Shown one piece after another: positions 1 through 17,868 of a stretch of 40,264 nucleotides of DNA; positions within the stretch are counted from its first letter, which is position 1, and the number at the start of each line of letters is the position of its first letter. The stretch is from Bryobacteraceae bacterium. GTDB taxonomy: Bacteria; Acidobacteriota; Terriglobia; Bryobacterales; Bryobacteraceae. Below the pieces are notes generated by a model. It was not told where the DNA came from. It saw nothing but the letters and a program-made list of their open reading frames with translations, and did no database searches. Location: contig JASHWA010000056.1 in assembly GCA_030044325.1 (NCBI GenBank), positions 1-40,264 of the forward strand, written 5' to 3'. The position numbers and the translations under genes are program-made.

Positions 1-1
1 A

Positions 2-424
2 CGCCGGCTCGACCTGATTCCGAACCTGGTCGAGACGGTGAAAGGATCGGCCGCGCATGAGGAAAAAGTAGTCGGCGAGGTGACCGAGGCGCGCGCGGCG
101 ATGATAGGCGCGAAAACGCCGCAGGAGCGCATTCAGGCCAACCAGCAGCTCGACGGCGCGCTCGGCCGCCTGATGGTGGTGGTCGAGAATTATCCCAACA
201 TCAAAGCCAACGAGAATTTCCTGCGCCTGCAAGATGAGCTTGCGGGCACGGAAAACCGGATCAACGTCGAACGCCGGAAATATAACGAGACGGTGCAGAA
301 ATACAACACCGATATCGCCCTGTTCCCCAAGAATATCGCCGCAAGCATGTTCGGCTTCGAGCGCGAGGACGCGTATTTCAAAGCCGACGAGGCGGCAAAG
401 CAGGCGCCGAAAGTCAAATTCTGA
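2..424 (+). CDS. lemA: LemA family protein (5' truncated by window edge)
   Basis: Open frame from base 2 reads [34 protein letters not shown]...[41 protein letters not shown], the LemA signature; continues upstream of the window. Confidence 0.93.
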
Positions 425-446
425 CCGGTAGTGGGGAGTGCATCGC

Positions 447-479
447 GGGAAGTAGGTCGACCCCTACCGCCTACTTCCC
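447..479. terminator. Inverted repeat / possible terminator between lemA and flgB
   Basis: GGGAAGTAGG...CCTACTTCCC perfect 10-bp arms directly after the lemA stop; no clear U-tract. Confidence 0.4.
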
Positions 480-529
480 ACTTCCTAGTTCCCGCCGCGT
501 GGAACGTTACTTGCAACCCTTCTCGCGTC

Positions 530-868
530 ATGCTCAACGGAGTGACTTCCGATCTCGAGCGCTACATGGATCTGCTCAGCGCCCGCCAAAAACTCGTCGC
601 TTCCAACATCGCCAATGCCGATACACCCGGCTATAAGACGCAAGATATTGATTTTCAATTCGAATTCGCTACGCTGACGCAGGGCGAATTGCCTCAGACC
701 ATCCAGCCCGACGGCCTAGTGGAAAAGCCCGACGGCAACAATGTCAATATCGACCGCGAGGCGCGGCTTCTTGCTGAAAATCAGATGCGTTTCAATCTGG
801 CTTCCGTTTTGGTGAAGGATCAGCTGAAAACGGTACAGGAAGCGATTCAGGGAGGCACTTCCTCATGA
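530..868 (+). CDS. flgB: Flagellar basal-body rod protein FlgB
   Basis: LLSARQKLVASNIANADTPGYKTQDIDFQFEF; start at internal ATG (530) preferred over the longer ORF start at 431; 4-bp overlap with flgC. Confidence 0.93.
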   Translation: MLNGVTSDLERYMDLLSARQKLVASNIANADTPGYKTQDIDFQFEFATLTQGELPQTIQPDGLVEKPDGNNVNIDREARLLAENQMRFNLASVLVKDQLKTVQEAIQGGTSS

Positions 869-1296
869 GCCTGTTCGGATCGATCGAAGTCAGCGCATCC
901 GGGATGGCCGCCGAACGCACTCGCGCGGAACTGCTGGTCCAGAACATCGCCAATTCCGAAACCACACGCACTCCGGAAGGCGGCCCGTATCGCCGGCAAG
1001 ACGTCGTATTCACAAGCGAGGAGCAATCTTCCCCGTTTTCGGCGGTTTTTCAGAACGAAGTAGGAACCGGCGTAGCGGTGAGCGACGTGGTTACCGACAC
1101 GCGCGATCCCATCAAGCGCTACATGCCCGGGCATCCCGACGCGGACGCGAACGGATATGTGGCATTCCCGAATATCAGCCCAGCCGAAGACATGGTGGAT
1201 CTGTTGAATTCGCAGCGGTCTTATGCCGCAAATGTGGCCGCGATCTCTTCGGTTAAAGACATGATTTCGCGATCCATCGACATTATGAGGTCGTAA
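865..1296 (+). CDS. flgC: Flagellar basal-body rod protein FlgC
   Basis: SGMAAERTRAELLVQNIANSETTRTPEGGPYRRQDVVF...SYAANVAAISSVKDMISRSIDIM. Confidence 0.94.
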   Translation: MSLFGSIEVSASGMAAERTRAELLVQNIANSETTRTPEGGPYRRQDVVFTSEEQSSPFSAVFQNEVGTGVAVSDVVTDTRDPIKRYMPGHPDADANGYVAFPNISPAEDMVDLLNSQRSYAANVAAISSVKDMISRSIDIMRS

Positions 1297-1297
1297 T

Positions 1298-1600
1298 ATG
1301 ACAGCTCCCATTCTTCCCGCGCATTTATCGATTCCGCAGATCGCGATGCCTTCAGCCGCGCCGCAGACAACGGCATCGGGAGGCGCGTTTCAATCCGCGT
1401 TCGCCGACGCGGTCGCCAAAGTCGAAAGCTTTCAGCAGAACGCGCAGGCGAGCGTCAACAAATTTCTTTCGGGCGAAGGCGAGGAGCTGCACAAGGTGGC
1501 CATCAACACCCAGCAGGCCGAGCTTTCCTTCCAGTTGTTCATGCAGATGCGCAACAAGATCGTCACCGCCTACAACCAGGTGATGCAGATGCAGATTTGA
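1298..1600 (+). CDS. fliE: Flagellar hook-basal body complex protein FliE
   Basis: Size, position between flgC and fliF, and C-terminus FMQMRNKIVTAYNQVMQMQI. Confidence 0.92.
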   Translation: MTAPILPAHLSIPQIAMPSAAPQTTASGGAFQSAFADAVAKVESFQQNAQASVNKFLSGEGEELHKVAINTQQAELSFQLFMQMRNKIVTAYNQVMQMQI

Positions 1601-1606
1601 GCGTGA

Positions 1607-3268
1607 ATGAACCAGATCACCCAGCTCCTCAAGAAGCTTACGCTGGCGCAACGCGTGTGGATCGTGGCGGCGGTTGTCGCGATCGGGGGCGGAATTTCCG
1701 CCGTGGTGCACTGGAACCAGGAGCGCGATTTCAAGCCGCTGTTTTCCGGAGTCGCGGCGGAGGACGCGGGTCCGCTGCTGGCGAAATTGCGCGAGTCAGC
1801 GGTCGAATACCGGCTCGCCGACAATGGAACCACGGTGCTGGTTCCTTCGGCGAGAGTCGCCGAGCTGCGCATCGAGATGGCGTCGGCGGGGCTGCCGAAA
1901 TCGGGGCGCATCGGATTCGAGCTATTCGATAAAACCAATTTCGGCGAAAGCGAATTCGCCGAGCAGGTGAACTATCATCGCGCAATTGAAGGCGAGCTCG
2001 AACGCTCCATCATGTCGATTCGCGAAGTCGCGATGGCGCGGGTGCACCTGACCTTCGCCAAGGATTCCTTATACACGGAGCAGCGCCAGCCCGCTAAAGC
2101 CAGCATTCTGGTGCAACTGCGGCACCAGGCCGCGCTTTCTCCGCAAAACATCGCGGCGATCTGCCAGTTGACCGCGAGCGCGGTGCCGGGGCTTACGCCG
2201 GACCAGGTTTCGCTGGTCGATACCGTGGGCAATCTGTTGAACCGGCCGCGCACGGCGGGCGCGGGCGACGAGGATTCGAGCGAAGCGGCGCTCGACTATC
2301 GAAAAAGCGTCGAAAAGGACGTGCAGAGCAAGATTGCCGCGACGCTTGAGCCGCTGCTCGGCGCGGAGCATTTTCGCGCGGGGGTCTCAGCCGACGTCGA
2401 TCTCACCAGCGGCGAGCAGAGCGAAGAGCTTTACGATCCCACCAAGTCCGTGATGACCACTTCCCAGCGGAGCGATGACGGTCCTGCGGTACAGGCGGCA
2501 TCGGGCATTCCGGGAACCGGGTCGAATCTGCCGCGGCCCGCATCGAAGCCGGTCACCGGATCGAGCAATTATCAGCGGCACACCGAAAACATCAGTTACC
2601 AGACCAGCCGGACGGTGAAACACACAAAAATCCCGCAGGGATCGATCAAAAGGATTTCGTTATCGATTCTGGTGGATCATACGGTTCGATTCGAGGGGCA
2701 GAAGCGCATGGTGGAAGCGCCTTCGGCCGAAAAGCTGAAGGTGATCAAGGACCTGGTGACGGCCGCGGCCGGGCTTGACGCCAATCGCGGGGATCAGATC
2801 GTGGTGGAGGCTTTCCCGTTCGAAGCGACGCTCCAGGCCGAGCCGGCGGTGATCGAAAAACCGGCCGCGGCGGAACCCGCGGCGGCGATGCCCCCATGGA
2901 TGCAGGCGCTTATGAAAAAGAACGGAATGGTGATCGCGGGGATCGGCGCAGCGGCGATGCTCGCGCTGATCGTCGGCTTCGTCGCCATCCGGAGGCGCGG
3001 TTCGCGCGGAAGGGTGAGCGTGGAACAGACGCCCGCGCTGGCAGCGCCGGCCTCGCCCACGACGGAAGAGCTGACCAAACAGATTGAGGCCAGGCTCGCC
3101 AACCAGGCGGCCGAAAAAGCGCGCCAGGAAGTGGAGCAGTTGATGGCGCTCAAGATCCCGGTGGTCAAGACCAAGAAAGCCGAAGTGCTTACCAAGCACA
3201 TCGCCACCGAATCGAAAACCGAGGCGGCCAACATGGCGCACGTCGTCAGGACGTGGCTGAATGGTTAG
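1607..3268 (+). CDS. fliF: Flagellar MS-ring protein FliF
   Basis: FKPLFSGVAAEDAGPLLAKL...GFELFDKTNFGESEFAEQVNYHRAIEGELERSI...ASILVQL; two TM segments. Confidence 0.96.
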   Translation: MNQITQLLKKLTLAQRVWIVAAVVAIGGGISAVVHWNQERDFKPLFSGVAAEDAGPLLAKLRESAVEYRLADNGTTVLVPSARVAELRIEMASAGLPKSGRIGFELFDKTNFGESEFAEQVNYHRAIEGELERSIMSIREVAMARVHLTFAKDSLYTEQRQPAKASILVQLRHQAALSPQNIAAICQLTASAVPGLTPDQVSLVDTVGNLLNRPRTAGAGDEDSSEAALDYRKSVEKDVQSKIAATLEPLLGAEHFRAGVSADVDLTSGEQSEELYDPTKSVMTTSQRSDDGPAVQAASGIPGTGSNLPRPASKPVTGSSNYQRHTENISYQTSRTVKHTKIPQGSIKRISLSILVDHTVRFEGQKRMVEAPSAEKLKVIKDLVTAAAGLDANRGDQIVVEAFPFEATLQAEPAVIEKPAAAEPAAAMPPWMQALMKKNGMVIAGIGAAAMLALIVGFVAIRRRGSRGRVSVEQTPALAAPASPTTEELTKQIEARLANQAAEKARQEVEQLMALKIPVVKTKKAEVLTKHIATESKTEAANMAHVVRTWLNG

Positions 3269-4292
3269 GGTCGGCGAACGCGAAGCCGACGCCCTGCCGG
3301 GCATCCGCAAAGCGGCCATCCTGATGATCATGATCGGCCCGGAGGCGTCGAGCTCTCTGTTTCGCGAGCTGGACGAAGACGAGGTGCAGGCCATCAGCGC
3401 GGAGATCGCGCGCGTGCAGATGCTCACTCCGGAAGAGTCCGAAGGTGTGCTCGAAGAGTTCTACCAGATGTCGATGGCGCGCGATTACGTCATCAAGGGC
3501 GGCGTCGAATACGCGCGCAAGGTGCTCAACAACGCCTTCGGCCCGGATCAGGCGCGCAAAATTTTCGACCGGCTCATGAAGACGCTGAACAATGAGACGG
3601 TCTCCTTCGACGCGCTGCAAAAAACCGACCCGCAGCAGCTCGCCAAGTTCATTCACAGTGAGCATCCGCAGACCATCGCGCTGGTGCTTTCCCATCTGAA
3701 CCCGGCGCAGGCGGCGGGATTGCTGTCATCGCTGCCCGCCGATCTGCGCTCGGACGTGACGCTGCGCATGGCGAGCCTGGACCAGATTTCGCCGGAGATC
3801 ATCAACAAGATCGCGAGCGTGATCGGCGCCAAGCTCAAGTCGCTGGGCGAGCTGAGCCGCGAATCCTACGGCGGCGTGAACGCCGTCGCCGAAATGATCA
3901 ATCGCCTGGATTCGAACGCGGGGCGCGAGATTCTGGAGTTCATCGAAAACCAGAATCCGCCGCTGGGGGAGACCATCCGCCACCTGATGTTCGTGTTCGA
4001 AGACCTGCTGCTGCTCGACGTAAACGCGGTGAAGGAGCTGCTAGGCAAGGTGGATCGAAAAATTCTGACGGTCGCGCTCAAGGGCACCAGCGACCAGATG
4101 AAGAATCACATGCTCGCCGGAATGAGCCAGCGCGGCGCGGAGATGCTGCGCGAGGACATGGAGGCGCTGGGACCCATCAAGATCAAGGAAGTGGAAGCGG
4201 CGCAGCAGCAGATCATCGCCGTGGTGCGGCAGCTCGAAACCGAGGGCGTGATCAGCCTGAAGGGCGCGGCTGGAGAACAATATGTCGTCTAA
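3261..4292 (+). CDS. fliG: Flagellar motor switch protein FliG
   Basis: SEHPQTIALVLSHLNPAQAAGLLSSLPADLRSDVTLRMASLDQISPEII...MFVFEDLLLLD; overlaps fliF stop. Confidence 0.97.
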   Translation: MVRVGEREADALPGIRKAAILMIMIGPEASSSLFRELDEDEVQAISAEIARVQMLTPEESEGVLEEFYQMSMARDYVIKGGVEYARKVLNNAFGPDQARKIFDRLMKTLNNETVSFDALQKTDPQQLAKFIHSEHPQTIALVLSHLNPAQAAGLLSSLPADLRSDVTLRMASLDQISPEIINKIASVIGAKLKSLGELSRESYGGVNAVAEMINRLDSNAGREILEFIENQNPPLGETIRHLMFVFEDLLLLDVNAVKELLGKVDRKILTVALKGTSDQMKNHMLAGMSQRGAEMLREDMEALGPIKIKEVEAAQQQIIAVVRQLETEGVISLKGAAGEQYVV

Positions 4293-4923
4293 ACTGCTGC
4301 GCGGAGAACAAACCGCGGGGACGGCGCCGTGGCGTCCCGCGCGCGCGCCCGCGAATCTGGCTGCGCAACCGGCAAACGCGCAAGTTTCCGCGGCCATTCC
4401 CAACGAGCAGCGCGATATCGAGGCTCGCCTCAACGCCGCCTACAAGCAGGGATTCGCGGCGGCGGAGGCCGCTGCGGCGAAGAACGCGAACCAGCGCCTG
4501 GAGCCCGCGCTGGCGGCCTTCCACGCGGTGCTCGAGGAGTTCGCCGGCGCACGCAGGAAATTTCGCGCCGAAGCCGAGCAGGACACGGTGAAGCTGGCCA
4601 TCGCCATCGCCCGCCGCGTGCTGTATCGCGAGCTCTCCACCGACGAAGAAGCGATTCTGGGTTTGGTGATCGCCGCCTTCCAGAAGTTGAACGCGCGCGA
4701 AACGCACCGGCTGCGCCTGTCGCCCCAAGGCGCGGCCATGATCGAGCAGAATCGCGCGCGCCTGCAGATGCCTGCGCGGGTCGAAATTGTCGCGGATGCT
4801 TCTCTGGGCGCGGGAAGCGCGGTGTTTGAAACTTCGCGCGGCGAGCTGGATGCGTCGGTCGACACGCAGCTCGCCGAAATCGACCGCGGATTCGCGGACA
4901 TCATGCGGAGGCGCCACCCATGA
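4282..4923 (+). CDS. fliH: Flagellar assembly protein FliH
   Basis: FliH/HrpE-type region YKQGFAAAEAAAAKNANQRLEP...LAIAIARRVLYRELS...; position between fliG and fliI. Confidence 0.85.
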   Translation: MSSKLLRGEQTAGTAPWRPARAPANLAAQPANAQVSAAIPNEQRDIEARLNAAYKQGFAAAEAAAAKNANQRLEPALAAFHAVLEEFAGARRKFRAEAEQDTVKLAIAIARRVLYRELSTDEEAILGLVIAAFQKLNARETHRLRLSPQGAAMIEQNRARLQMPARVEIVADASLGAGSAVFETSRGELDASVDTQLAEIDRGFADIMRRRHP

Positions 4924-4925
4924 CA

Positions 4926-5014
4926 CCCGTGGGACAGCGGGTCGTGGCGGCTGTCGTTCGCCTGGATCGTAACAGCTCCGGCAGCCGTCACAAACCGACC
5001 GGCTGTCCCACGGG
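4926..5014. repeat. Palindromic (REP/MITE-like) element between fliH and fliI
   Basis: CCCGTGGGACAGC (4926-4938) and GCTGTCCCACGGG (5002-5014) are perfect 13-bp inverted arms; nested GTGGCGGCTG/CAGCCGTCAC arms inside. Confidence 0.75.
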
Positions 5015-5038
5015 GATCCGCTGCAGGAGAACGCTGTG

Positions 5039-6349
5039 ATGCTTTCGACCTACATCGACGCGCTGGAGCGTATGCCTACGTTTCGCGCCGCGGGGCATGT
5101 TCGCGAATTGATCGGGCTGCTGGCGGGCTCCGACGGCCCGGCCGCCGCGGCGGGCGACTTCTGCGAAATCCTCTCCGCCAGCGGACGTTCGGTGCGCGCC
5201 CAGGTGGTCGGATTTCGCGATGAGCGCGTGCTGCTGATGCCGCTCGAAGAAACCGGCGGGATCCAGCTCGGCGACACCGTGATCGCGCGGGCGGAAGCGG
5301 CGCGCGTCGAAGTGGGTCCCCACCTGCTCGGCCGCGTGCTCGATGGATTCGGACGTCCCATGGATGGCCGCGCGCCGGCCGATTCGGACGGTTTCTACGA
5401 TCTCTACGCCGCGCCTCCCGGACCGCTCGATCGCGAGCACATCACCCAACCGCTGGTCACCGGAATCCGCTCCATCGACGGACTTCTGCCGCTCGGTAAG
5501 GGCCAGCGCGTCGGAATTTTCGGAGGGTCGGGCGTCGGCAAGAGCACGCTGCTGGGAGCCATGGCGCGCCACAATTCGGCCGACGTGAGCGTCGTCGCGC
5601 TGATCGGCGAACGCAATCGCGAAGTGCGCGAGTTCCTGGAAAACGAGTTGAGCGCGGAGGGATTGAAGCGCAGCGTGGTGATCGCCGCGACCTCCGATAT
5701 GCCCGCGCCGCTGCGCATTCGCGCGGCGTTCGTCGCCCTGGCCGTCGCCGAATATTTTCGGGATCAGGGCAAAAGCGTGCTGCTGGTGATGGATTCGGTG
5801 ACGCGGCTGGCGATGGCGCAGCGCGAGATCGGACTGGCCGCGGGCGAGCCGCCGTCGCAGAAGGGCTACACGCCCAGCGTGTTCAGCCTGCTTCCCAAGA
5901 TCTTCGAGCGCGCGGGAAATTTTAAATCCGGCTCTATCACGGGATTTTTCACCGTGCTGGTGGAAGGCGACGATTTCAATGAGCCCATCTGCGACGCCGT
6001 GCGCGCGATCCTCGACGGCCACATCGTCCTCTCGCGCGAGCTGGGCGCGATGGGCCATTATCCGGCGATCGATATTTTGCATTCGGTGAGCCGGCTCGCC
6101 TCGCGCGTTTCCGAGCCCAAGCAGCGCGAGGCGGCGCAGAAAATTCGCGAGGCGCTTGCCGAGTACCGGCGTTCGGAGGATTTGATCAACCTGGGCGCTT
6201 ACGCCGCGGGCTCCAATCCGCGTCTCGATTCGGCGATCAAGCTGCGTCCCAAGCTGATGAACTTCCTGCGGCAGGAGCCGCAAACCTGCGAGCACATCGA
6301 GCGCACGCGCGCGCGGCTGGCCGAGCTCGCCGGAGAGCACGCCTCATGA
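5039..6349 (+). CDS. fliI: Flagellum-specific ATP synthase FliI
   Basis: GQRVGIFGGSGVGKSTLLGAMAR Walker A, LVMDSVTRLAMAQREIGLAAGEPPSQKGYTPSVFSLLPK; GTG at 5036 or ATG at 5039. Confidence 0.97.
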   Translation: MLSTYIDALERMPTFRAAGHVRELIGLLAGSDGPAAAAGDFCEILSASGRSVRAQVVGFRDERVLLMPLEETGGIQLGDTVIARAEAARVEVGPHLLGRVLDGFGRPMDGRAPADSDGFYDLYAAPPGPLDREHITQPLVTGIRSIDGLLPLGKGQRVGIFGGSGVGKSTLLGAMARHNSADVSVVALIGERNREVREFLENELSAEGLKRSVVIAATSDMPAPLRIRAAFVALAVAEYFRDQGKSVLLVMDSVTRLAMAQREIGLAAGEPPSQKGYTPSVFSLLPKIFERAGNFKSGSITGFFTVLVEGDDFNEPICDAVRAILDGHIVLSRELGAMGHYPAIDILHSVSRLASRVSEPKQREAAQKIREALAEYRRSEDLINLGAYAAGSNPRLDSAIKLRPKLMNFLRQEPQTCEHIERTRARLAELAGEHAS

Positions 6350-6780
6350 AGAAATTCGAATTCCCGCTAAGCCGTGTGCTCGACTGGCGCCAAACGCTCG
6401 CGCGCATCGAGGAATTGAAACTCGAGCGTCTCTACGCCGAGCTGCGCGCGATCGAATCGAGAGAAGCCGAATTGCTGGCCGAGCGCTCGCGCAGCGAACG
6501 CGCGGCCGCCGAAGCGCGATCCCAGACCGGGTCCGAGCTGGCTGCGCTCGACGCCTTCCGGCGCTTCGCCATCGCCGAGCACACGCGACTCGAACAGCTT
6601 CGCGCAGAGTCGAAGAAACGGATCGCCGATCAGATCGGGGTGGTCGCGTTGAAGCGCCGCGACGTGCGCCTGCTCGAACACTTGAAAGACCGGCGCATGG
6701 GGGAGTGGAATCGCGATCTCGCGCGCGAAATCGAGACGCAGGCGGGCGAAATTTATCTCGCCAAGTGGGACCGCGGGTGA
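6346..6780 (+). CDS. fliJ: Flagellar FliJ-like protein
   Basis: MKKFEFPLSRVLDWRQTLARIEELKLERLYAELRAIESREAEL; coiled-coil, directly after fliI with 4-bp overlap. Confidence 0.85.
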   Translation: MKKFEFPLSRVLDWRQTLARIEELKLERLYAELRAIESREAELLAERSRSERAAAEARSQTGSELAALDAFRRFAIAEHTRLEQLRAESKKRIADQIGVVALKRRDVRLLEHLKDRRMGEWNRDLAREIETQAGEIYLAKWDRG

Positions 6781-6911
6781 GGCTCGCTGAAACGATGGCG
6801 CGCGCGCTGACGCTGTAAACGCATTGCGGCGATGCACGCTGGACAGCCGCCAGCCTGGGCGGACGGAAGGCAGCCGGCAACTCGCGTGGTTTTGATTATA
6901 GGACCAGGATC

Positions 6912-7784
6912 TTAATACGGCGTCCGCTCGAACGCCTCGGTCGATGCGCGCGAACGGCTGCGCCGGCTCCCGGGCCATTCCAGGCGCATGTCGCGGCAAA
7001 CTTCATCCAGCATGTCGTGCGTGCAGACCTTGCTTTCGACCGCGAAAGCGGTGAGCAGGAGGTTGTCGCAGAGGGCGTTGATCACGCGCGGGATTCCCTG
7101 CGCGCGCACGTGAATCTCCGCCATCAGCTCTTCGGAAAAAATAGTCTGATTCGGCGCACCCGCGCGATCAAGGCGCGATTCGATATACTCCACCGCGTCG
7201 CGCAGCGTAAATGGTTGCAGATTGCAGCGCAGGACGATGCGCTGCTTCAACTGCCGCAGATTGGGCGCGTCCAGTTTCCGGTCGAGCTCCGGCTGCCCGG
7301 CAAGAATGATCTGCAACAGCTTCCCGTTGCGATTTTCGAGATTTCCCAGAAGCCGGATTTCCTCGAGCACCTCCCATTCGAGGTTATGTGCTTCGTCCAC
7401 GATCAGCACCACGGTTCGCCCGTCCTGCGCCTGCTCCACCAGCAACTGGTTCAGCGCGAACAAAACCTCGGTTTTCGATGTGCGCTGGCACGGCAGATCC
7501 AGATCGTAGGCGATCATTTCGAAAAACTGATCGGTGTTGACCCGCGAATTAAACAGGAACGCGAATTCGATATATTGCGATTCGAGGTAATCCCTCAGGC
7601 ACTCGAGCATCGTGGTTTTTCCAGTACCAACTTCGCCTGAGAGCACGATAAAGCCCTTACGCGCCTGCACGCCATATACCAGATTCGCCAGGGCTTCCTC
7701 GTGCTGTTCGCTCCGGTAAAAGAATGCCGGATCGGGACTTAAACTGAAAGGGGTCTCCGAGAAGCCAAAAAATGCGTTGTACAT
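6912..7784 (-). CDS. ExeA/GspA-like AAA ATPase
   Basis: MYNAFFGFSETPFSLSPDPAFFYRSEQHEEALANLVYGVQARKGFIVLSGEVGTGKTTMLECLRDYL...VVLIVDEAHNLEWEVLEEIRLLGNLE. Confidence 0.92.
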   Translation of the reverse strand: MYNAFFGFSETPFSLSPDPAFFYRSEQHEEALANLVYGVQARKGFIVLSGEVGTGKTTMLECLRDYLESQYIEFAFLFNSRVNTDQFFEMIAYDLDLPCQRTSKTEVLFALNQLLVEQAQDGRTVVLIVDEAHNLEWEVLEEIRLLGNLENRNGKLLQIILAGQPELDRKLDAPNLRQLKQRIVLRCNLQPFTLRDAVEYIESRLDRAGAPNQTIFSEELMAEIHVRAQGIPRVINALCDNLLLTAFAVESKVCTHDMLDEVCRDMRLEWPGSRRSRSRASTEAFERTPY

Positions 7785-8023
7785 GTTAGCCGACTGACGT
7801 CCCTCCGACCGACCGGGCGCGTTCTAAACCCTCGCTGCCTCTGTACTTATCGATGGTAACATGCAATCGATCGGGGCAAATCCATTTTTTTCGTACCGAA
7901 TCGTGTGGTCCAAACGTTCTAGTGCTTTACCAACCAAGTTTGAACGGCTCGGATCTTACCGTTCAACCCCCGGCTGCGCCCAAAAAAAGGCTACCGTTCG
8001 CGCAAGACGTCCGTCATACGGAC

Positions 8024-8287
8024 ATGCGGGCCTGGTGCGCGTTGCTGGTCAGCTTGGCCGCGTGCGCCCCATCACCTGCATACCACATCACCGTCATCCC
8101 CTCCGGAGGCGATCCCGGCGCCGTCGCGGTTGCCGATTTGAACCATGACGGCCATCCCGATATCATCGCCGCGAACGAAAACGGAGGAACGATCACAGTA
8201 CTGCTCGGGGATGGCAAGGTCAATTCCACCGGGCGCCGGGAAGTCCTTTGGCGGCCGGGGACGATCACGGTGTTTCGAGGGAAATGA
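8024..8287 (+). pseudogene. Truncated FG-GAP/VCBS repeat protein (remnant)
   Basis: Signal-peptide-like MRAWCALLVSLAACAPSPAYHITVIPSGGDPGAVAVADLNHDGHPDIIAANENGGTITVLLGDGK then a short aberrant tail ending TITVFRGK*; only about one repeat. Stop abuts csm5 stop. Confidence 0.6.
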
Positions 8288-9397
8288 TCAGTCTGAAATT
8301 TCGAGCATCGCCCATCCCGGCAAACTCGCGGGATAGTTCTGTTGAAAAATCACCCGCCGCGTCTTGGGAAACGGCATCCCCGTCTGAATCGCTTTTTGAT
8401 ACAAGGGCACGTGCTTCAGGATTTGCCGGAATGATTCGTCCTGGGTATTCAAATACGCCGATTTTCCGAGCATCCCTCCACCCCAGCCAATCGACAGAAC
8501 GCACACATCCGTCCGCTCGCCGATTTCCTTGACGCGCCCTTCGAGCGCCCCGAGCGTCGCCGCAAGATACGGTAATCCTGCCCACGCGGCATATTGTTTA
8601 TGCCGCTCGATCAGCGCCGAAGCGTATTGGTTCGCGGCGTGAAACAATTTTCCCCGGTCGGCTGCCGAGCGCTCCCGCCACGCACCTGTAAACGCCGTGC
8701 CCGGCGTCGCCATCTCGGCGAAAATCGGCGTGCTCTCTTCGATTCTGCGCGGCTCCACGCTTCCGCGCGCCGATTTCCACCCCAGCTCGAATCTCCCCGC
8801 TCCCCGCGCCACCAGCGTCGCTACGCGCAGCAGGTACACTTTCATCGGCGCGTGCGTGATCGGCGACGAATCGGCCGCCGCGATGCGCCGCATGCGGCTC
8901 GATCCGGACCCTCCCAGCACCGCATCCTCCGCTATCGCCGCCGGATTCCGGGGCGGACGATCGTCTTGCGCGAGGCGCGCCGCCAGATCCGCCATCGTTT
9001 TTTCCGTCCAGCGTTCGAATACCGCGCCCGTGCGCAGCGCGCCCTTGATCGCCGTTCCCGGAACGTAAGGACCCGACGGCGATTCCGCGAACGTCGGAAT
9101 AAACAGGTTCGGCGCCATGGCGCGCTCCCAGTACGGAATGGCGCTCGAATGTTCGAAGGGAATTCGGCGCCCCGCGAAATTCTGCGCGAACCCTCCCCAG
9201 GATGCGAAATCCAGCTTGTCGGCTTTTTTGAGCTGCGCGAGATATCCGTCCAGGCGCGGACCCTTTGCCAACAGGCGAAAGATGCGCCGCTGATCGAGCA
9301 CGTTCACATGATCCTTCCAGACCATGTAATCGATCGGCGAAAGCCGCTGGCCGTCGCCGATGAGCGTGGGGGTCAAGCAGGTCAGTCTGTACCTCAT
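8288..9397 (-). CDS. csm5: Type III-A CRISPR RAMP protein Csm5
   Basis: MRYRLTCLTPTLIGDGQRLSPIDYMVWKDHVNVLDQRRIFRLL...IPTFAESPSGPYVPGTAIKGALRTGAV; start set at codon 71 of the 439-aa ORF because the preceding part lies in a palindromic repeat. Confidence 0.88.
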   Translation of the reverse strand: MRYRLTCLTPTLIGDGQRLSPIDYMVWKDHVNVLDQRRIFRLLAKGPRLDGYLAQLKKADKLDFASWGGFAQNFAGRRIPFEHSSAIPYWERAMAPNLFIPTFAESPSGPYVPGTAIKGALRTGAVFERWTEKTMADLAARLAQDDRPPRNPAAIAEDAVLGGSGSSRMRRIAAADSSPITHAPMKVYLLRVATLVARGAGRFELGWKSARGSVEPRRIEESTPIFAEMATPGTAFTGAWRERSAADRGKLFHAANQYASALIERHKQYAAWAGLPYLAATLGALEGRVKEIGERTDVCVLSIGWGGGMLGKSAYLNTQDESFRQILKHVPLYQKAIQTGMPFPKTRRVIFQQNYPASLPGWAMLEISD

Positions 9398-9418
9398 CTG
9401 GTATATGCCCCGGTCAGT

Positions 9419-9520
9419 TGTGGCGCACGCGCTTTTGCGTGCCGCGTCCCCGCTCCTGGGGACGCCTGGCCCGGCGTCGGCACGAATGCCGACGCGGCAC
9501 GCACGAGTGCGTGCGCCACC
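9419..9520. repeat. Complex palindromic element in the csm4-csm5 intergenic gap
   Basis: Left arm GTGGCGCACGCGCTTTTGCGTGCCGCGTC (9420-9448) is near-complementary to right arm GACGCGGCACGCACGAGTGCGTGCGCCACC (9491-9520); inner hairpins GCGTCCCC-GCTCCT-GGGGACGC and CGTCGGCA-CGAA-TGCCGACG. Confidence 0.85.
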
Positions 9521-9524
9521 ACAC

Positions 9525-10484
9525 TCACGCGACCCTCCACGGAATCGCGACGGCGACCGCGAATCCGGCCCGATACACCGGATGCGCGAAGTTTTCCGGC
9601 GCCACATCCATCGCCGCGCCGCGCGGCTCGGCTTGCGCCACGATCACCGAGCCCTCCGCAACCATCCGCGTCGGCCGCTTCGCATCGCCGAAATCCTCGA
9701 CGCGCCCGGTGCGCGTAGTCAACGCGTAATCGCCGCGCTGCCAGTCGATCGAATCTTCCGCGGCCGGATGAAACAGGGACAACATCCACCACGCGCCCGA
9801 TCCCGCCACTCCGGTGACCAGCGCCGCGTCGTCATCGGAAAACGATATCTCCGCGCGCCCCCATCCGCGCGACCGCTCGCCTCCGAATCCCGAATCCGCC
9901 AGCAGCCGCAGCGCCGCGGTCACCGGCTCTTTCCATTTCTCCGAGTCCCGCAGTTGCGCGGTCATCCACATGCCCGCTTGTGGCGCGAATTCAAGACACG
10001 CGCTCGAATGTTGCTCCACCGCGGCGCCGTGCCGGTCGACCGCAGCGTTGGATCGCACCGAAACCCGAAACGGACCCTGCGCGCCTTGCGGAATCAGGCA
10101 CTCGCTCGCGCCGTCCACCGTCCAGTTTTCCTCCGAAATCGCGCGCCCGTGGACCAAATCGCCCGCGACGCTCATCGGCACGAACCGCGCGCCTTTCCAG
10201 CGCACCTTCGCCGACGGCGGCGGAGGCCACAAACTGCGCGGCGGAACGACGAACATCGTCTCGCCATGAAACGGAAAACATGAGCTCAGCCGCACCGCCG
10301 GATCCGCGCTCCGCGCCGTCGCGTCCAGCCACTCGTCGAGCATTCCCAGCCGCGCCATCGCGGTGGAAACGGCGGAATACACCGAATCGCTGTGATACAC
10401 GCGGTCCACCCGATCGCGGTCGCCCGAATCGGGTCCAATGCGCCAGGGGCCGGTGGGATAAAGTTTAACGATCATCGAGGGCAA
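9525..10484 (-). CDS. csm4: Type III-A CRISPR RAMP protein Csm4
   Basis: MIVKLYPTGPWRIG...VYHSDSVYSAVSTAM; C-terminal LRLLADSGFGGERSRGWGRAEIS glycine-rich RAMP loop. Confidence 0.9.
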   Translation of the reverse strand: MPSMIVKLYPTGPWRIGPDSGDRDRVDRVYHSDSVYSAVSTAMARLGMLDEWLDATARSADPAVRLSSCFPFHGETMFVVPPRSLWPPPPSAKVRWKGARFVPMSVAGDLVHGRAISEENWTVDGASECLIPQGAQGPFRVSVRSNAAVDRHGAAVEQHSSACLEFAPQAGMWMTAQLRDSEKWKEPVTAALRLLADSGFGGERSRGWGRAEISFSDDDAALVTGVAGSGAWWMLSLFHPAAEDSIDWQRGDYALTTRTGRVEDFGDAKRPTRMVAEGSVIVAQAEPRGAAMDVAPENFAHPVYRAGFAVAVAIPWRVA

Positions 10485-10499
10485 GTGTGGGACAGCCGG

Positions 10500-11336
10500 T
10501 CAATTCGCCAGCTTCTCGCCGAAATCCCCGTTCGACGTGACTTTCTGAATCGCGCCCAGATCCGCGCCCGATGCGAGCTCCGTCTCCGCGCCGCCCGAGG
10601 AATAAAACGCGCGATTGCGCCAGGCCAGCTTCAAATTCGCGAACCGCACCCGGCCGCTTCCGCGCGACCCTCCGCCGCCCAGCGCGTCGTCTTCGAGCAA
10701 TCGCAGCCCCTCGAACACGCGCGCCACCAGCGCCTTGTCTTCCTCGCACAAAATATCCATCACCATGCGAACCTTGAATCGCGCGCCCGCGGGAACGCGC
10801 TCAAGCGTCCTCGGATTGGCTTGCGATGTAATCCGGTCGATCGCGTTCTCGCTCTTGACCTCCGTGATTTCGTCGTCGAGATTCTCGCGCATCTGCGCCG
10901 TGATGCTGTCCGGCTCGAGCGGCGCGTCGTACACCGTCAGCCGCGCCGGACTCGCCGCGCGCGTCTCGATCGGCTCCCCCTCCATGCGCTCCACGCGGCC
11001 GGGGCTGCGCCCGAACAGCAGGCAGATTTCATCATCGGGCCGCTCGCTCTGATGAATGCGCACCTCCTGGCCGCGGCGCTTCGAAAGATACACCAGTTCG
11101 GCCGGCGTAGTCAGCCCCAGCGCGTTTTCAAGCAGCGACCGCAGCCTCCCGCGCAACGAGCTCCCCGGAATATACGGCAGCCCGAACGCGTCCTTCACCA
11201 CCGGATTATCCGCGCCGCCGATTTCCAGCGACCCCTTGCCCGCGCCGATGTGCAAGCCGGTTTCGCAGTGCAGATCGCCCGATAAAATCAGTTTCCCCAC
11301 CAACTGCAATTGTGTTTGAGCTGTGTGTGCGCTCAT
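10500..11336 (-). CDS. csm3: Type III-A CRISPR RAMP protein Csm3 (backbone target RNase)
   Basis: LSGDLHCETGLHIGAGKGSLEIGGADNPVVKDAFGLPYIPGSSLRGRLRSLLE...ALGGGGSRGSGRVRF; the IGGxDxPVVKD Asp is retained. Confidence 0.95.
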   Translation of the reverse strand: MSAHTAQTQLQLVGKLILSGDLHCETGLHIGAGKGSLEIGGADNPVVKDAFGLPYIPGSSLRGRLRSLLENALGLTTPAELVYLSKRRGQEVRIHQSERPDDEICLLFGRSPGRVERMEGEPIETRAASPARLTVYDAPLEPDSITAQMRENLDDEITEVKSENAIDRITSQANPRTLERVPAGARFKVRMVMDILCEEDKALVARVFEGLRLLEDDALGGGGSRGSGRVRFANLKLAWRNRAFYSSGGAETELASGADLGAIQKVTSNGDFGEKLAN

Positions 11337-11342
11337 ATTCCT

Positions 11343-12116
11343 CTATTCGTTATATGCGACGATCGCCTCAAAAAGGTCCTTGAATCGCTCGTATCCGCGC
11401 GCATCGTTTTTGCGCGTGACTTGCAACAGCAGCCGTTCGAGCGCGTCCAGGCTGCGCAGCGAATGCCGCACGATGGTGTACGCCAGGCGCGCTCTCAGCA
11501 TCACGAACTGGTGCTGCCGCTCGCTTTCCGGCGCCCGCACCGCGCGGCGAACCGCGTTGTACAATCGCCGCAACTGGCTCTTGGTGCCCGAATCCATGTC
11601 GCGCATCCGTGCCACCACCGCGTGCGCCTGGTTGTCCAGATACAGGCTGTCCGAAATCAGTTTTTCAAGCTCGATATCGGCGAAGCCTTCAAATGGCCGC
11701 GCGCCGCCGGGCCGTCCGCCCTCGCGCCGGTCTCCACGTTGTTCTCCGCGTTGTTCTCCGCGTTGTTCTCCGCGTTGTTCTCCACGTGGTTCTCCGCGCT
11801 GATCACCGCGGCCTTCGCGCCGGTCGCCGCGCCTCTGCTCGCCCTGCTGCGGACGTGGGCCGCGCTCTTCGCGCGGCTTCTCTTCCCGCCGTTGGCCCTG
11901 CGGTTTCGCTTCCGGCTTCGGCTGCGGCTTGGGCGGCTCGACTTTGGGAGCTTCAGCAGGAGCCTCCGGCTGAGGAGCCTCGGGCTGAGGAGCCTCGGGC
12001 TGAGGAGCCTCTGGCTGAGGAGCCTCGACCGTCGAGGCGGCCGGCTCCGGCGCCGCTTCTTTTTGAGTTTCGTTCTCTACCGCATCATCCATCGGACATC
12101 CTTCCTGGGTTGACAA
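11343..12116 (-). CDS. csm2: Csm2 small subunit with long low-complexity N-terminal extension
   Basis: C-terminal ~110 aa ELEKLISDSLYLDNQAHAVVARM...SQLRRLYNAVRRAV...RARLAYTIVRHS...YERFKDLFEAIVAYNE matches Csm2; N-terminal ~145 aa is PQPEA and RGEQ repeats. Alternative start M9 (12092). Confidence 0.85.
   Translation of the reverse strand: MSTQEGCPMDDAVENETQKEAAPEPAASTVEAPQPEAPQPEAPQPEAPQPEAPAEAPKVEPPKPQPKPEAKPQGQRREEKPREERGPRPQQGEQRRGDRREGRGDQRGEPRGEQRGEQRGEQRGEQRGDRREGGRPGGARPFEGFADIELEKLISDSLYLDNQAHAVVARMRDMDSGTKSQLRRLYNAVRRAVRAPESERQHQFVMLRARLAYTIVRHSLRSLDALERLLLQVTRKNDARGYERFKDLFEAIVAYNE
11731..11800. repeat. Tandem 12-bp repeat inside csm2 (encodes RGEQ units)
   Basis: CGTTGTTCTCCG repeated: ...ccacgttgttctccgcgttgttctccgcgttgttctccgcgttgttctccacg... 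Confidence 0.9.
11955..12029. repeat. Tandem 15-bp repeat inside csm2 (encodes APQPE/PQPEA units)
   Basis: GGCTGAGGAGCCTCG repeated with minor variants about four times. Confidence 0.9.
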
Positions 12117-12183: not shown

Positions 12184-13626
12184 CTACTCAGCGGACAACC
12201 TCGCCCATTCTAGCGCCACGCGACCGGCGGGCCGCAACTTCACCGTCACCGCGCTGCGCCCGATCAGGTCCGCGATCAGCGCGGTGCGGGCTTTCTGAAA
12301 ATCGCCACGTTCCGGGGCGCCGTCCCGCGCCGCGCCCAGGATTCTGCGAATCCGCCGGTGATAGCGCCACGGCCGCTCGCCTCCCATCCTGCGAGCCTGC
12401 CGGCGCGACATTTTCGACTGCGTCTCGCGATAAATTCCGCATAAATCCCGCAGATATTGCGAAGAGACTCCATAATCCGAAATCATTCGCATCAAAGACT
12501 CTTTTAAATCCGACGCTTCGGAGAACTGCTTCCATTCGAGCGTCCGCCCCAGCAGCCAGATGCAATCCTTATCCGCCGATTTGGCGATCTCCAGCCGCTC
12601 GCCCGCCTCTTCAAACACCGCGCCCAGCGACGAATCGACCGCCGGCGCGAGCGCCAGCGCCATGCTGATCGTCTTCCCCTCCGGCCCGGCGAACTCCTGA
12701 AGCGTCGCCTCGACGAATCTGTGAAACAAGCGTTCGATCTCTCGCGCCAGCGCAATCAGCGCGTCCCACGCGCCATACACCGCGAAATCGTCGCCGCCCG
12801 AAAAAATCACCGTGACTTTTCGCCAGAACTCCGGCATCGAGCACAGCACTTCCAGCTCACCCGCGAAAAACTGCTTGTACATCACCGAAAGCTGGATGTG
12901 CTCCTCGATGGTTTGCGCCCGCCGAATGCGAATTCCGAAATTATCCACGTCGCCGCGCAACACACCCCACGTATTCAATCCCGACGCGCGCCCCGCCAGG
13001 GCGGCCGTCGAGGCCGGCTCGCGGCCGTCGTCGCTCGGCGCCGCGTGCCGCGCAAACGGCAGCGCTTCGGTCGACGATCCCGCCAGGCTCCAGACGTGCT
13101 TTCCTTCCCCGATATGAATCCGTCCCGGCGTTTCCGGCGACCACCCCGCCGATTCCGCGTCGCGCAGCTTCATCCCCAATTGCCCCGCGAAATAATGTTC
13201 CGAATCGCCGTCCGCGGCCGCGGGCGCCGCATCGAACCCCGGCGTTCCCCGCCGATGCTCCATCTGCTCGGTCAACCGCCGCCGGACGTCGCTCCAATCG
13301 CCCAGATTTTCCGTGACGCTCCACAGCAGCTTCAGCAATCCTGCGCTCAAATCGGCGATCTCGCGCGCCGCGCCGTCCAGAAAATTGTCGGCCGCGCCGC
13401 GCGATTCCTCCGGCAGCACCACCAAAAACTGCCCGCCTCCGCTCGATCCCAAAAGGATTTTCGACAATCCCAGCTCGTTGAGCAGCGCGCGCGGCAAAAT
13501 TTCCATCAGCAGCGTGATCCAATGCGAGCGCCCGGTGAAGACCTGGTCATGGTCTTTTTCGGACGGCGCGAACAGAAACTCTTCGATCCCGAGGAGCTTC
13601 CCCTGTAGGAAAATTTGCACGGACAT
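12184..13626 (-). CDS. cas10: Compact Cas10/Csm1, no recognisable HD domain, GGDD intact
   Basis: Palm 1-like LGSSGGGQFLVVLP; palm 2 WGVLRGDVDNFG...VTVIFSGGDDFAVYGAWDALIALAREIERLF; 480 aa with no N-terminal HD and no CxxC zinc ribbon. Confidence 0.92.
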   Translation of the reverse strand: MSVQIFLQGKLLGIEEFLFAPSEKDHDQVFTGRSHWITLLMEILPRALLNELGLSKILLGSSGGGQFLVVLPEESRGAADNFLDGAAREIADLSAGLLKLLWSVTENLGDWSDVRRRLTEQMEHRRGTPGFDAAPAAADGDSEHYFAGQLGMKLRDAESAGWSPETPGRIHIGEGKHVWSLAGSSTEALPFARHAAPSDDGREPASTAALAGRASGLNTWGVLRGDVDNFGIRIRRAQTIEEHIQLSVMYKQFFAGELEVLCSMPEFWRKVTVIFSGGDDFAVYGAWDALIALAREIERLFHRFVEATLQEFAGPEGKTISMALALAPAVDSSLGAVFEEAGERLEIAKSADKDCIWLLGRTLEWKQFSEASDLKESLMRMISDYGVSSQYLRDLCGIYRETQSKMSRRQARRMGGERPWRYHRRIRRILGAARDGAPERGDFQKARTALIADLIGRSAVTVKLRPAGRVALEWARLSAE

Positions 13627-17237: not shown

Positions 17238-17600
17238 TTACTTCGATTCGGGCGAAAGCACCAGGTTCACGTCCACGCGTTCCGAGCCCGGCACGCCGCC
17301 TCCGGTAATCGACGCTTCCTTTTCATCCGGGCGGTATCCCTTCGCCGCCGCCCGCACCACGTACACCGCCTGGACCGCCGGCACGCGAAACTCGAATTCG
17401 CCGCGATAGTTGGTCGTCGCTTCCTGCTTTTTCGACTTCGCCTCGCCGCGCGCCTGCAACGTCACTTTCGCCTCCGGCACGGCGAACCCCGGATCGCGAA
17501 ACACCGTGCCCTCTACGATCGCGTAGGACGAATTCTTTCCGCCCAAAGCCAGCGCGCACGCGCACAGGAAAACCGCCCCGGCGGCTCTACTTCCACTCAT
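17238..17600 (-). CDS. Carboxypeptidase-regulatory-like domain protein
   Basis: IVEGTVFRDPGFAVPEAKVTLQARGEAKSKKQEATTNYRGEFEFRVPAVQAVYVVRAAAKGY; start at MSGSRAAG because upstream ORF sequence is out-of-frame read of the neighbouring acidic gene. Confidence 0.78.
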   Translation of the reverse strand: MSGSRAAGAVFLCACALALGGKNSSYAIVEGTVFRDPGFAVPEAKVTLQARGEAKSKKQEATTNYRGEFEFRVPAVQAVYVVRAAAKGYRPDEKEASITGGGVPGSERVDVNLVLSPESK

Positions 17601-17868
17601 CCTCTTCTTCGTCCTCTTCCTCGTCCAGATCGTCGTCATCCTCGTCAAAATCGTCGTCTTCGTCGAAATCCTCGTCGTCGTCATCGTCCTCGTCGTCGGT
17701 TTCCGGCGTCAATTCGAGCGGCGAGACGCTGCTCACGCTGAGATTGGCTCCGCAGTCTTCACAGATCAGCGAATCGCCTTCGTCCAGTTCCTCTTCGTCC
17801 ACATCGATTACGGCATCGCACATTGGACAGTTGACCATCACTTCCTCCACCAGGCGCATACCTTCCAC
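17587..17868 (-). CDS. LysW-like zinc-ribbon protein with poly-acidic C-terminal tail
   Basis: VNCPMCDAVIDVDEEELDEGDSLICEDCGANLSVSSVSPLELTPETDDEDDDDDED...EEEDEWK; two CxxC motifs. Confidence 0.78.
   Translation of the reverse strand: MEGMRLVEEVMVNCPMCDAVIDVDEEELDEGDSLICEDCGANLSVSSVSPLELTPETDDEDDDDDEDFDEDDDFDEDDDDLDEEEDEEEDEWK

Follow-up and report, generated by a model that had tools for sequence, protein, structure and literature searches.

Here, we show by distribution and phylogenetic trees that the ancestor of the soil-bacterial family Bryobacteraceae (Acidobacteriota) already had a type III-A Csm effector, which the family has since retained as a core set of genes. As a rule, CRISPR effectors are mobile and patchily distributed genes of defence; in contrast, this Csm operon has been inherited vertically, like a housekeeping gene set. 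The window analysed (the whole stretch of DNA, 40,264 nt) comes from an assembly that is 79% complete and consists of 642 contigs. The core of its small subunit, Csm2, was found in 55 of the 60 other Bryobacteraceae genomes, with identities of 79-97%, and these genomes represent 36 of 39 genera; the same search found it in 0 of 40 order- and class-level genomes. Three of the five family genomes that lack it are 65-84% complete; in the other two (G025, 92% complete; G029, 99%), csm2 may truly have been lost. Among named contigs, those with the Csm2 core come almost exclusively from Acidobacteriota MAGs assigned to Bryobacteraceae, Bryobacterales, Solibacter or Sulfopaludibacter-type lineages; some are labelled to class or phylum only, and one label is evidently wrong. 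When 396 genomes were drawn from the phylum, just eight outside the family had a Csm2, all of them remote, and no plasmid copy was detected at E 0.001.

The mean identity of the Csm2 core among sampled genomes is close to that of RpoB (85.5% vs 84.3%). In a tree comparison based on 27 genomes (rpoB of G046 was left out as mis-extracted, and the 79% complete genome of the window yielded no rpoB domain), the csm2+csm3 tree shared 15 of 24 splits with the rpoB tree, including 12 of the 16 well-supported ones. The cas10 tree and the tree of the whole operon had 10 and 13 splits in common with rpoB, respectively, compared with about 0.2-0.3 for random labels. The dN/dS values of seven close pairs were 0.014-0.062 for Csm2, 0.03-0.11 for Csm3 and 0.04-0.14 for Cas10; on the basis of dN/dS, with some csm5 pairs left out, the filament body is more constrained than Cas10, Csm4 and Csm5.

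One genome that holds the core operon, G050, also contains an ordinary type III-A locus (L229, contig G050:C44, about positions 1-8200), which has an 851-aa Cas10, a linked Cas6 and a CARF protein of Csm6 type, and whose Csm2 lacks the Arg/Gly/Asp/Glu (R/G/D/E) tail described below. Weak second Csm2 matches also occur in G030, G007 and G052, without csm genes around them, and are probably due to chance.

The csm operon and its neighbourhood

The operon of the window lies on the minus strand in the order cas10, csm2, csm3, csm4 and csm5, and the same order was observed in all 40 family loci that were fetched. The following features were annotated:

12184-13626 (-): cas10/csm1, 480 aa, beginning at palm1, GGDD present, without HD domain (TIGR02578, 1.9e-52; PF22335, palm2)
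11343-12092 (-): csm2, whole gene, 249 aa, ATG start (PF03750, 6.9e-10; TIGR01870, 4.4e-10)
11673-12092 (-): disordered Csm2 tail, about residues 1-140 (AF2 pLDDT about 50)
11958-12027 (-): 15-nt tandem repeat encoding PQPEA, acidic/Pro block of the tail (Tandem Repeats Finder, 4.7 copies, 94% matches)
11731-11810 (-): 12-nt tandem repeat encoding GEQR, R/G block of the tail (Tandem Repeats Finder, 6.7 copies, 88% matches)
11346-11669 (-): helical Csm2 core, residues 142-249 (AF2, six helices; top fold matches nearly all solved Csm2 chains)
10500-11336 (-): csm3, catalytic Asp kept in IGGADNP (TIGR02582, 8.3e-61)
9525-10475 (-): csm4, likely ATG start at 10475 (TIGR01903, 2.7e-38)
8288-9397 (-): csm5, likely start at 9397 (TIGR01899, 3.1e-15)
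6912-7784 (-): AAA ATPase beside csm5, resembling the XrtA/PEP-CTERM-associated ATPase but below the family cut-off

The score of Cas10 against TIGR02578 (178.9 bits) is just above the cut-off of 170. The HD domain is absent because the protein begins at the first palm domain, profile residue 11 aligning to residue 273 of a solved Csm1, and it is missing from Cas10 throughout the family loci, none of which has a conserved HD replacement upstream of cas10. An HD domain in Cas10 is typical of type III-A systems and is not required for the subtype. The GGDD motif is intact in 36 of 41 Cas10 proteins and altered in five (GSDD, GGND twice, GGDE and GHDQ); judged from this conservation, cyclase activity may still be of importance. 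With a mean pLDDT of 65, the AF2 model of Cas10 was of insufficient quality and was left unused. The catalytic Asp of Csm3 is invariant in 40/40 readable orthologues. The csm5 start was placed at 9397 because the alignments in most relatives begin at residue 71 of a longer frame.

The preliminary description of this DNA had placed a csm2 frame here and read its C-terminal part as Csm2. Both proposals were confirmed, the gene lying on the minus strand and residues 152-247 matching PF03750, with further support from TIGR01870 and PADLOC Csm2 (2.2e-13). The 257-aa form listed for csm2 starts with a TTG at 12116; the ATG at 12092 is the better start, since a Shine-Dalgarno sequence (AGGAAGG) precedes it and since in relatives the csm2 ATG has a characteristic position relative to the cas10 stop, a few tens of nucleotides from it in most loci and sometimes overlapping it. 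AF2, run on 31 family sequences, predicted six helices for residues 142-248 with a pLDDT of about 87-96. Nearly all of the best Foldseek matches of the Csm2 model were solved Csm2 chains, at weak E-values (0.03 at best), probably because the tail dilutes the score. Thus, the profile and fold matches together indicate that the small subunit that marks subtype III-A is present.

Genes flanking csm are mostly unconserved, except the AAA ATPase, which adjoins csm5 in 17 of 40 relatives; nothing observed links this ATPase to the action of Csm. Several other elements were noticed in or near these loci. The csm4-csm5 gap of the window (9417-9522) holds a palindromic element of about 106 bp with a predicted hairpin of -84 kcal/mol, whose core of 46-47 bp recurs at 91-94% identity at unrelated sites in a few other family genomes (L036, L072, L154, L160 and L189); it reads as a putative dispersed repeat of REP or MITE type. 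A row of flagellar-type genes read as fliG, fliH, fliI and fliJ (3261-6780, plus strand) adjoins the csm region in the window and was absent beside csm in the 40 relatives fetched.

The disordered N-terminal tail of Csm2

The preliminary description had proposed that Csm2 bears a long, low-complexity N-terminal extension made of two blocks. This was borne out at the DNA level, where both blocks are in-frame tandem repeats, an acidic Pro/Ala/Glu block followed by an Arg/Gly/Asp/Glu block, and by the AF2 model, in which residues 1-140 had no secondary structure and a pLDDT of about 50 next to the well-modelled helical core. It had also been considered that the tail might be an assembly or frameshift artefact, or that translation might begin downstream of it. 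Both can be dismissed, because an in-frame tail was found in 104/104 distinct orthologues and because the csm2 ATG lies near the cas10 stop.

The suggested search of homologues for such extensions covered 104 distinct Csm2 orthologues from 121 loci, mostly from MAGs, with tail starts set by a simple rule, so that the true start may differ slightly in a small number of cases. Every orthologue had an R/G/D/E-rich tail, of 30-163 aa (median 65), with an R+G fraction of at least 0.23 and 1-11% hydrophobic residues. Several motifs were recurrent, including DRG (80 orthologues), RG[DE] (78), PPR (68) and RPPRE (44). On the other hand, the acidic Pro/Ala/Glu block was observed mainly in the genus of the window and in few other genera. 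Since the R/G/D/E arm is family-wide and the acidic block is mainly confined to one genus, the latter looks like a later extension of the tail, as far as the sequences indicate.

Two claims about the tail were therefore upheld in part. It had been described as an acidic block followed by a basic one, and two blocks are indeed present in the window, but there is no fixed design across the family, and "basic" overstates the second block: it contains 21 Lys/Arg and 16 Asp/Glu residues (net +5), and the median net charge over the last 60 tail residues of the family orthologues is +3. The tail had also been said to be absent from described Csm2 proteins. Shorter N-terminal extensions do exist elsewhere: the Csm2 of Thermococcus onnurineus has 187 aa and its match begins only at about residue 94, and the eight remote Csm2 proteins of other Acidobacteriota have about 20-40 residues before the helical part. 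What stood is that these extensions in the same phylum lack the R/G/D/E composition.

Composition and the AF2 model show that the tail contains disordered Arg/Gly-rich repeats of RG/RGG type. It resembles the eukaryotic RNA-binding regions of this type in having such repeats, and disorder, on an RNA-handling protein. However, Arg alternates with Asp/Glu in the Csm2 arm (RGD, RGE, DRG), which makes it a nearly neutral polyampholyte; the clearly positive charge of RG/RGG-type regions is absent from the arm, both in the second block of the window and in the family median. Such a charge argues against strong RNA binding.

A second charged tail of low complexity lies elsewhere in the window (17587-17868, minus strand), where a small protein with a CxxC...CxxC start has a long C-terminal tail of only Asp and Glu, derived from tandem repeats (17597-17698).

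Arrays, Cas6 and the search for guides

No CRISPR array was found within the window, and none beside csm in 40 + 80 relative loci, where a few repeat flags in the L138-L217 set were left unread. Repeat clusters near csm in L040, L050 and L066 turned out on reading to be long tandem or low-complexity repeats; in L050 (7830-8180, genome G041), five tandem copies of a unit of ~70 nt lie immediately upstream of cas10 and do not form a CRISPR array. Linked cas1, cas6 or Csm6 genes were likewise absent from core csm loci. A Csm6-type protein (PF09623) was detected in four genomes among the 60 other family members, and PF09659 matched nowhere, controls included.

Cas6 is encoded away from csm in 36 of 37 family genomes, including that of the window (locus L083, PF10040, 8.1e-14). 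It evolves fast, the proteins of most relatives being 35-59% identical to that of the window's genome, and its co-occurrence with the operon suggests that it probably works with the core Csm complex. Cas1 has a scattered distribution, occurring in 13 of 37 family genomes; it was not found in the 79% complete genome of the window (G000), and most genomes of the same genus lack it.

Runs of repeats ending in ATTGARAC were observed in only three of 37 family genomes (G023, G029 and G032), and isolated ATTGARAC pairs in other family genomes look like chance. Arrays of this type were absent from the window's genome (79% complete) and from its genus (23 genomes). Matches to a 14-nt repeat-end pattern were clustered in about ten genomes from other genera, with at most two matches per genome in the genus of the window. 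G048, a family member with the core csm operon, contains a very large set of CRISPR repeats (contig C19, from about 24202; 163 matches in the genome), which is a candidate supply of crRNAs in trans. In G029, the 99% complete genome without core csm2, two arrays with the same repeat flank a putative reverse transcriptase gene near cas6 (L101, contig C13, 6865-9750).

No guide RNA was recognized beside csm, where the cas10-csm2 gap is short and unconserved and the flanks are unconserved except for the AAA gene. Beside cas6, there was no Rfam match, and the conserved flanks look largely coding.

Possible roles and comparison with known systems

We infer that the core Csm complex no longer serves mainly adaptive immunity. 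Our preferred reading, which we hold tentatively and at just short of an even chance, is that a type III-A effector whose parts are described above has turned into a core, Cas6-dependent guided RNase, the Csm2 arms providing multivalent contacts with RNA or ribonucleoproteins (RNPs). That the whole family has domesticated the complex as a housekeeping RNase with fixed chromosomal guides, and with the Csm2 arm for RNA contact, is plausible, although we would bet mildly against it. As no guide was found, the guided-RNase reading rests on the conserved parts. In this mechanism, Cas6 would trim a chromosomally encoded crRNA-like guide, itself still hypothetical; the Csm filament would carry it, and Csm3 would cut complementary RNA, whether cellular or from resident elements, and signalling by cyclic oligoadenylate would be optional. 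By analogy with known Csm structures, each of the several Csm2 copies lining the filament would project an R/G/D/E arm. Weak multivalent contacts of these arms with RNA or other RNP proteins could then raise the local target concentration or cluster the complexes, and the acidic block in the genus of the window might temper such contacts.

The chief rival is that the system is still immune, the core Csm complex using crRNAs from the arrays of other CRISPR-Cas systems and the tail being an accessory for RNA capture. The conservation of Cas6 and the arrays with Cas6-type repeats in about ten genomes of other genera agree with this, as do the facts that crRNA borrowing in trans is an accepted idea for III-G and that arrays are missing from most III-B, III-C, III-E and III-F loci as well (PMC12669027). 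However, no array with ATTGARAC-type ends was found in 23 genomes of the window's genus, and most genomes of this genus lack Cas1, yet purifying selection on the operon is strong, and near-universal vertical retention is unusual for defence genes. We therefore lean against immunity through borrowed crRNAs, while regarding it as quite possible. For the tail, it might be proposed that it simply serves as a flexible linker that aids solubility and changes by slippage of its repeats, with no role in RNA contact or clustering. Its variable length, the in-frame tandem repeats of the window and its nearly neutral charge would fit, but its R/G/D/E composition is kept in 104/104 orthologues, with recurrent RPPRE and DRG motifs, and the ordinary Csm2 proteins of the same phylum have shorter tails of other composition; a mere linker appears rather unlikely.

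Two further explanations carry much less weight. All five Csm subunits are recognizable, as expected of an ordinary mobile III-A defence locus with an odd tail, which was the frame of the preliminary description. Such a locus is very improbable given the vertical, family-wide core spread and the lack of HD domain, array, Csm6 and linked cas1 and cas6, and the genuine ordinary locus in G050 bears little resemblance to the core operon. That the operon is a decaying relic, or an artefact of assembly or frameshift, is hardly credible: although it lacks the HD domain and accessory genes, GGDD is altered in a few lineages and the assembly of the window is fragmented and incomplete, the same architecture with open frames occurs in 40 separately assembled loci, with strong purifying selection and RpoB-like conservation, which refutes this explanation for the family.

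If the guided-RNase reading is correct, a Csm complex whose Csm2 is as conserved as RNA polymerase across the family, and whose loci have neither arrays nor adaptation genes, would provide a clear, testable example of a CRISPR effector retained for another job, and its target could be read directly from a conserved guide, should one be found. To our knowledge, the Csm2 arm would represent a novel type of disordered contact that is built into a class 1 filament. An HD-less Csm complex with an intact Csm3 site could also be of interest as a putative cutter of RNA only.

Our open-access literature searches found no description of the Bryobacteraceae Csm system. It resembles the type III-A Csm complex in the palm domains of Cas10, the usual order of Csm2-Csm5, the Asp of Csm3 and the mostly intact GGDD. 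It differs in lacking the HD domain, a local array, adaptation genes and a linked Csm6, in having an unlinked Cas6, and in its vertical core inheritance and the R/G/D/E arm on Csm2. The nearest precedent for III-A roles beyond immunity is the system of the Mycobacterium tuberculosis complex, which is conserved across the lineage with little sign of spacer acquisition and for which such roles have been proposed (PMC13334790). That system, in one young species complex, keeps its arrays, cas1, cas2, linked cas6 and csm6, whereas the one described here spans a whole family without those parts beside csm. Array-less type III subtypes and variants such as III-G likewise have their effector genes apart from any array or adaptation module, and III-G was described with an active HD domain and without the conserved catalytic Asp of Cas7 (PMC12669027). 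The Bryobacteraceae Csm complex shows the reverse pattern: the HD domain has been lost and the Csm3 Asp is invariant.
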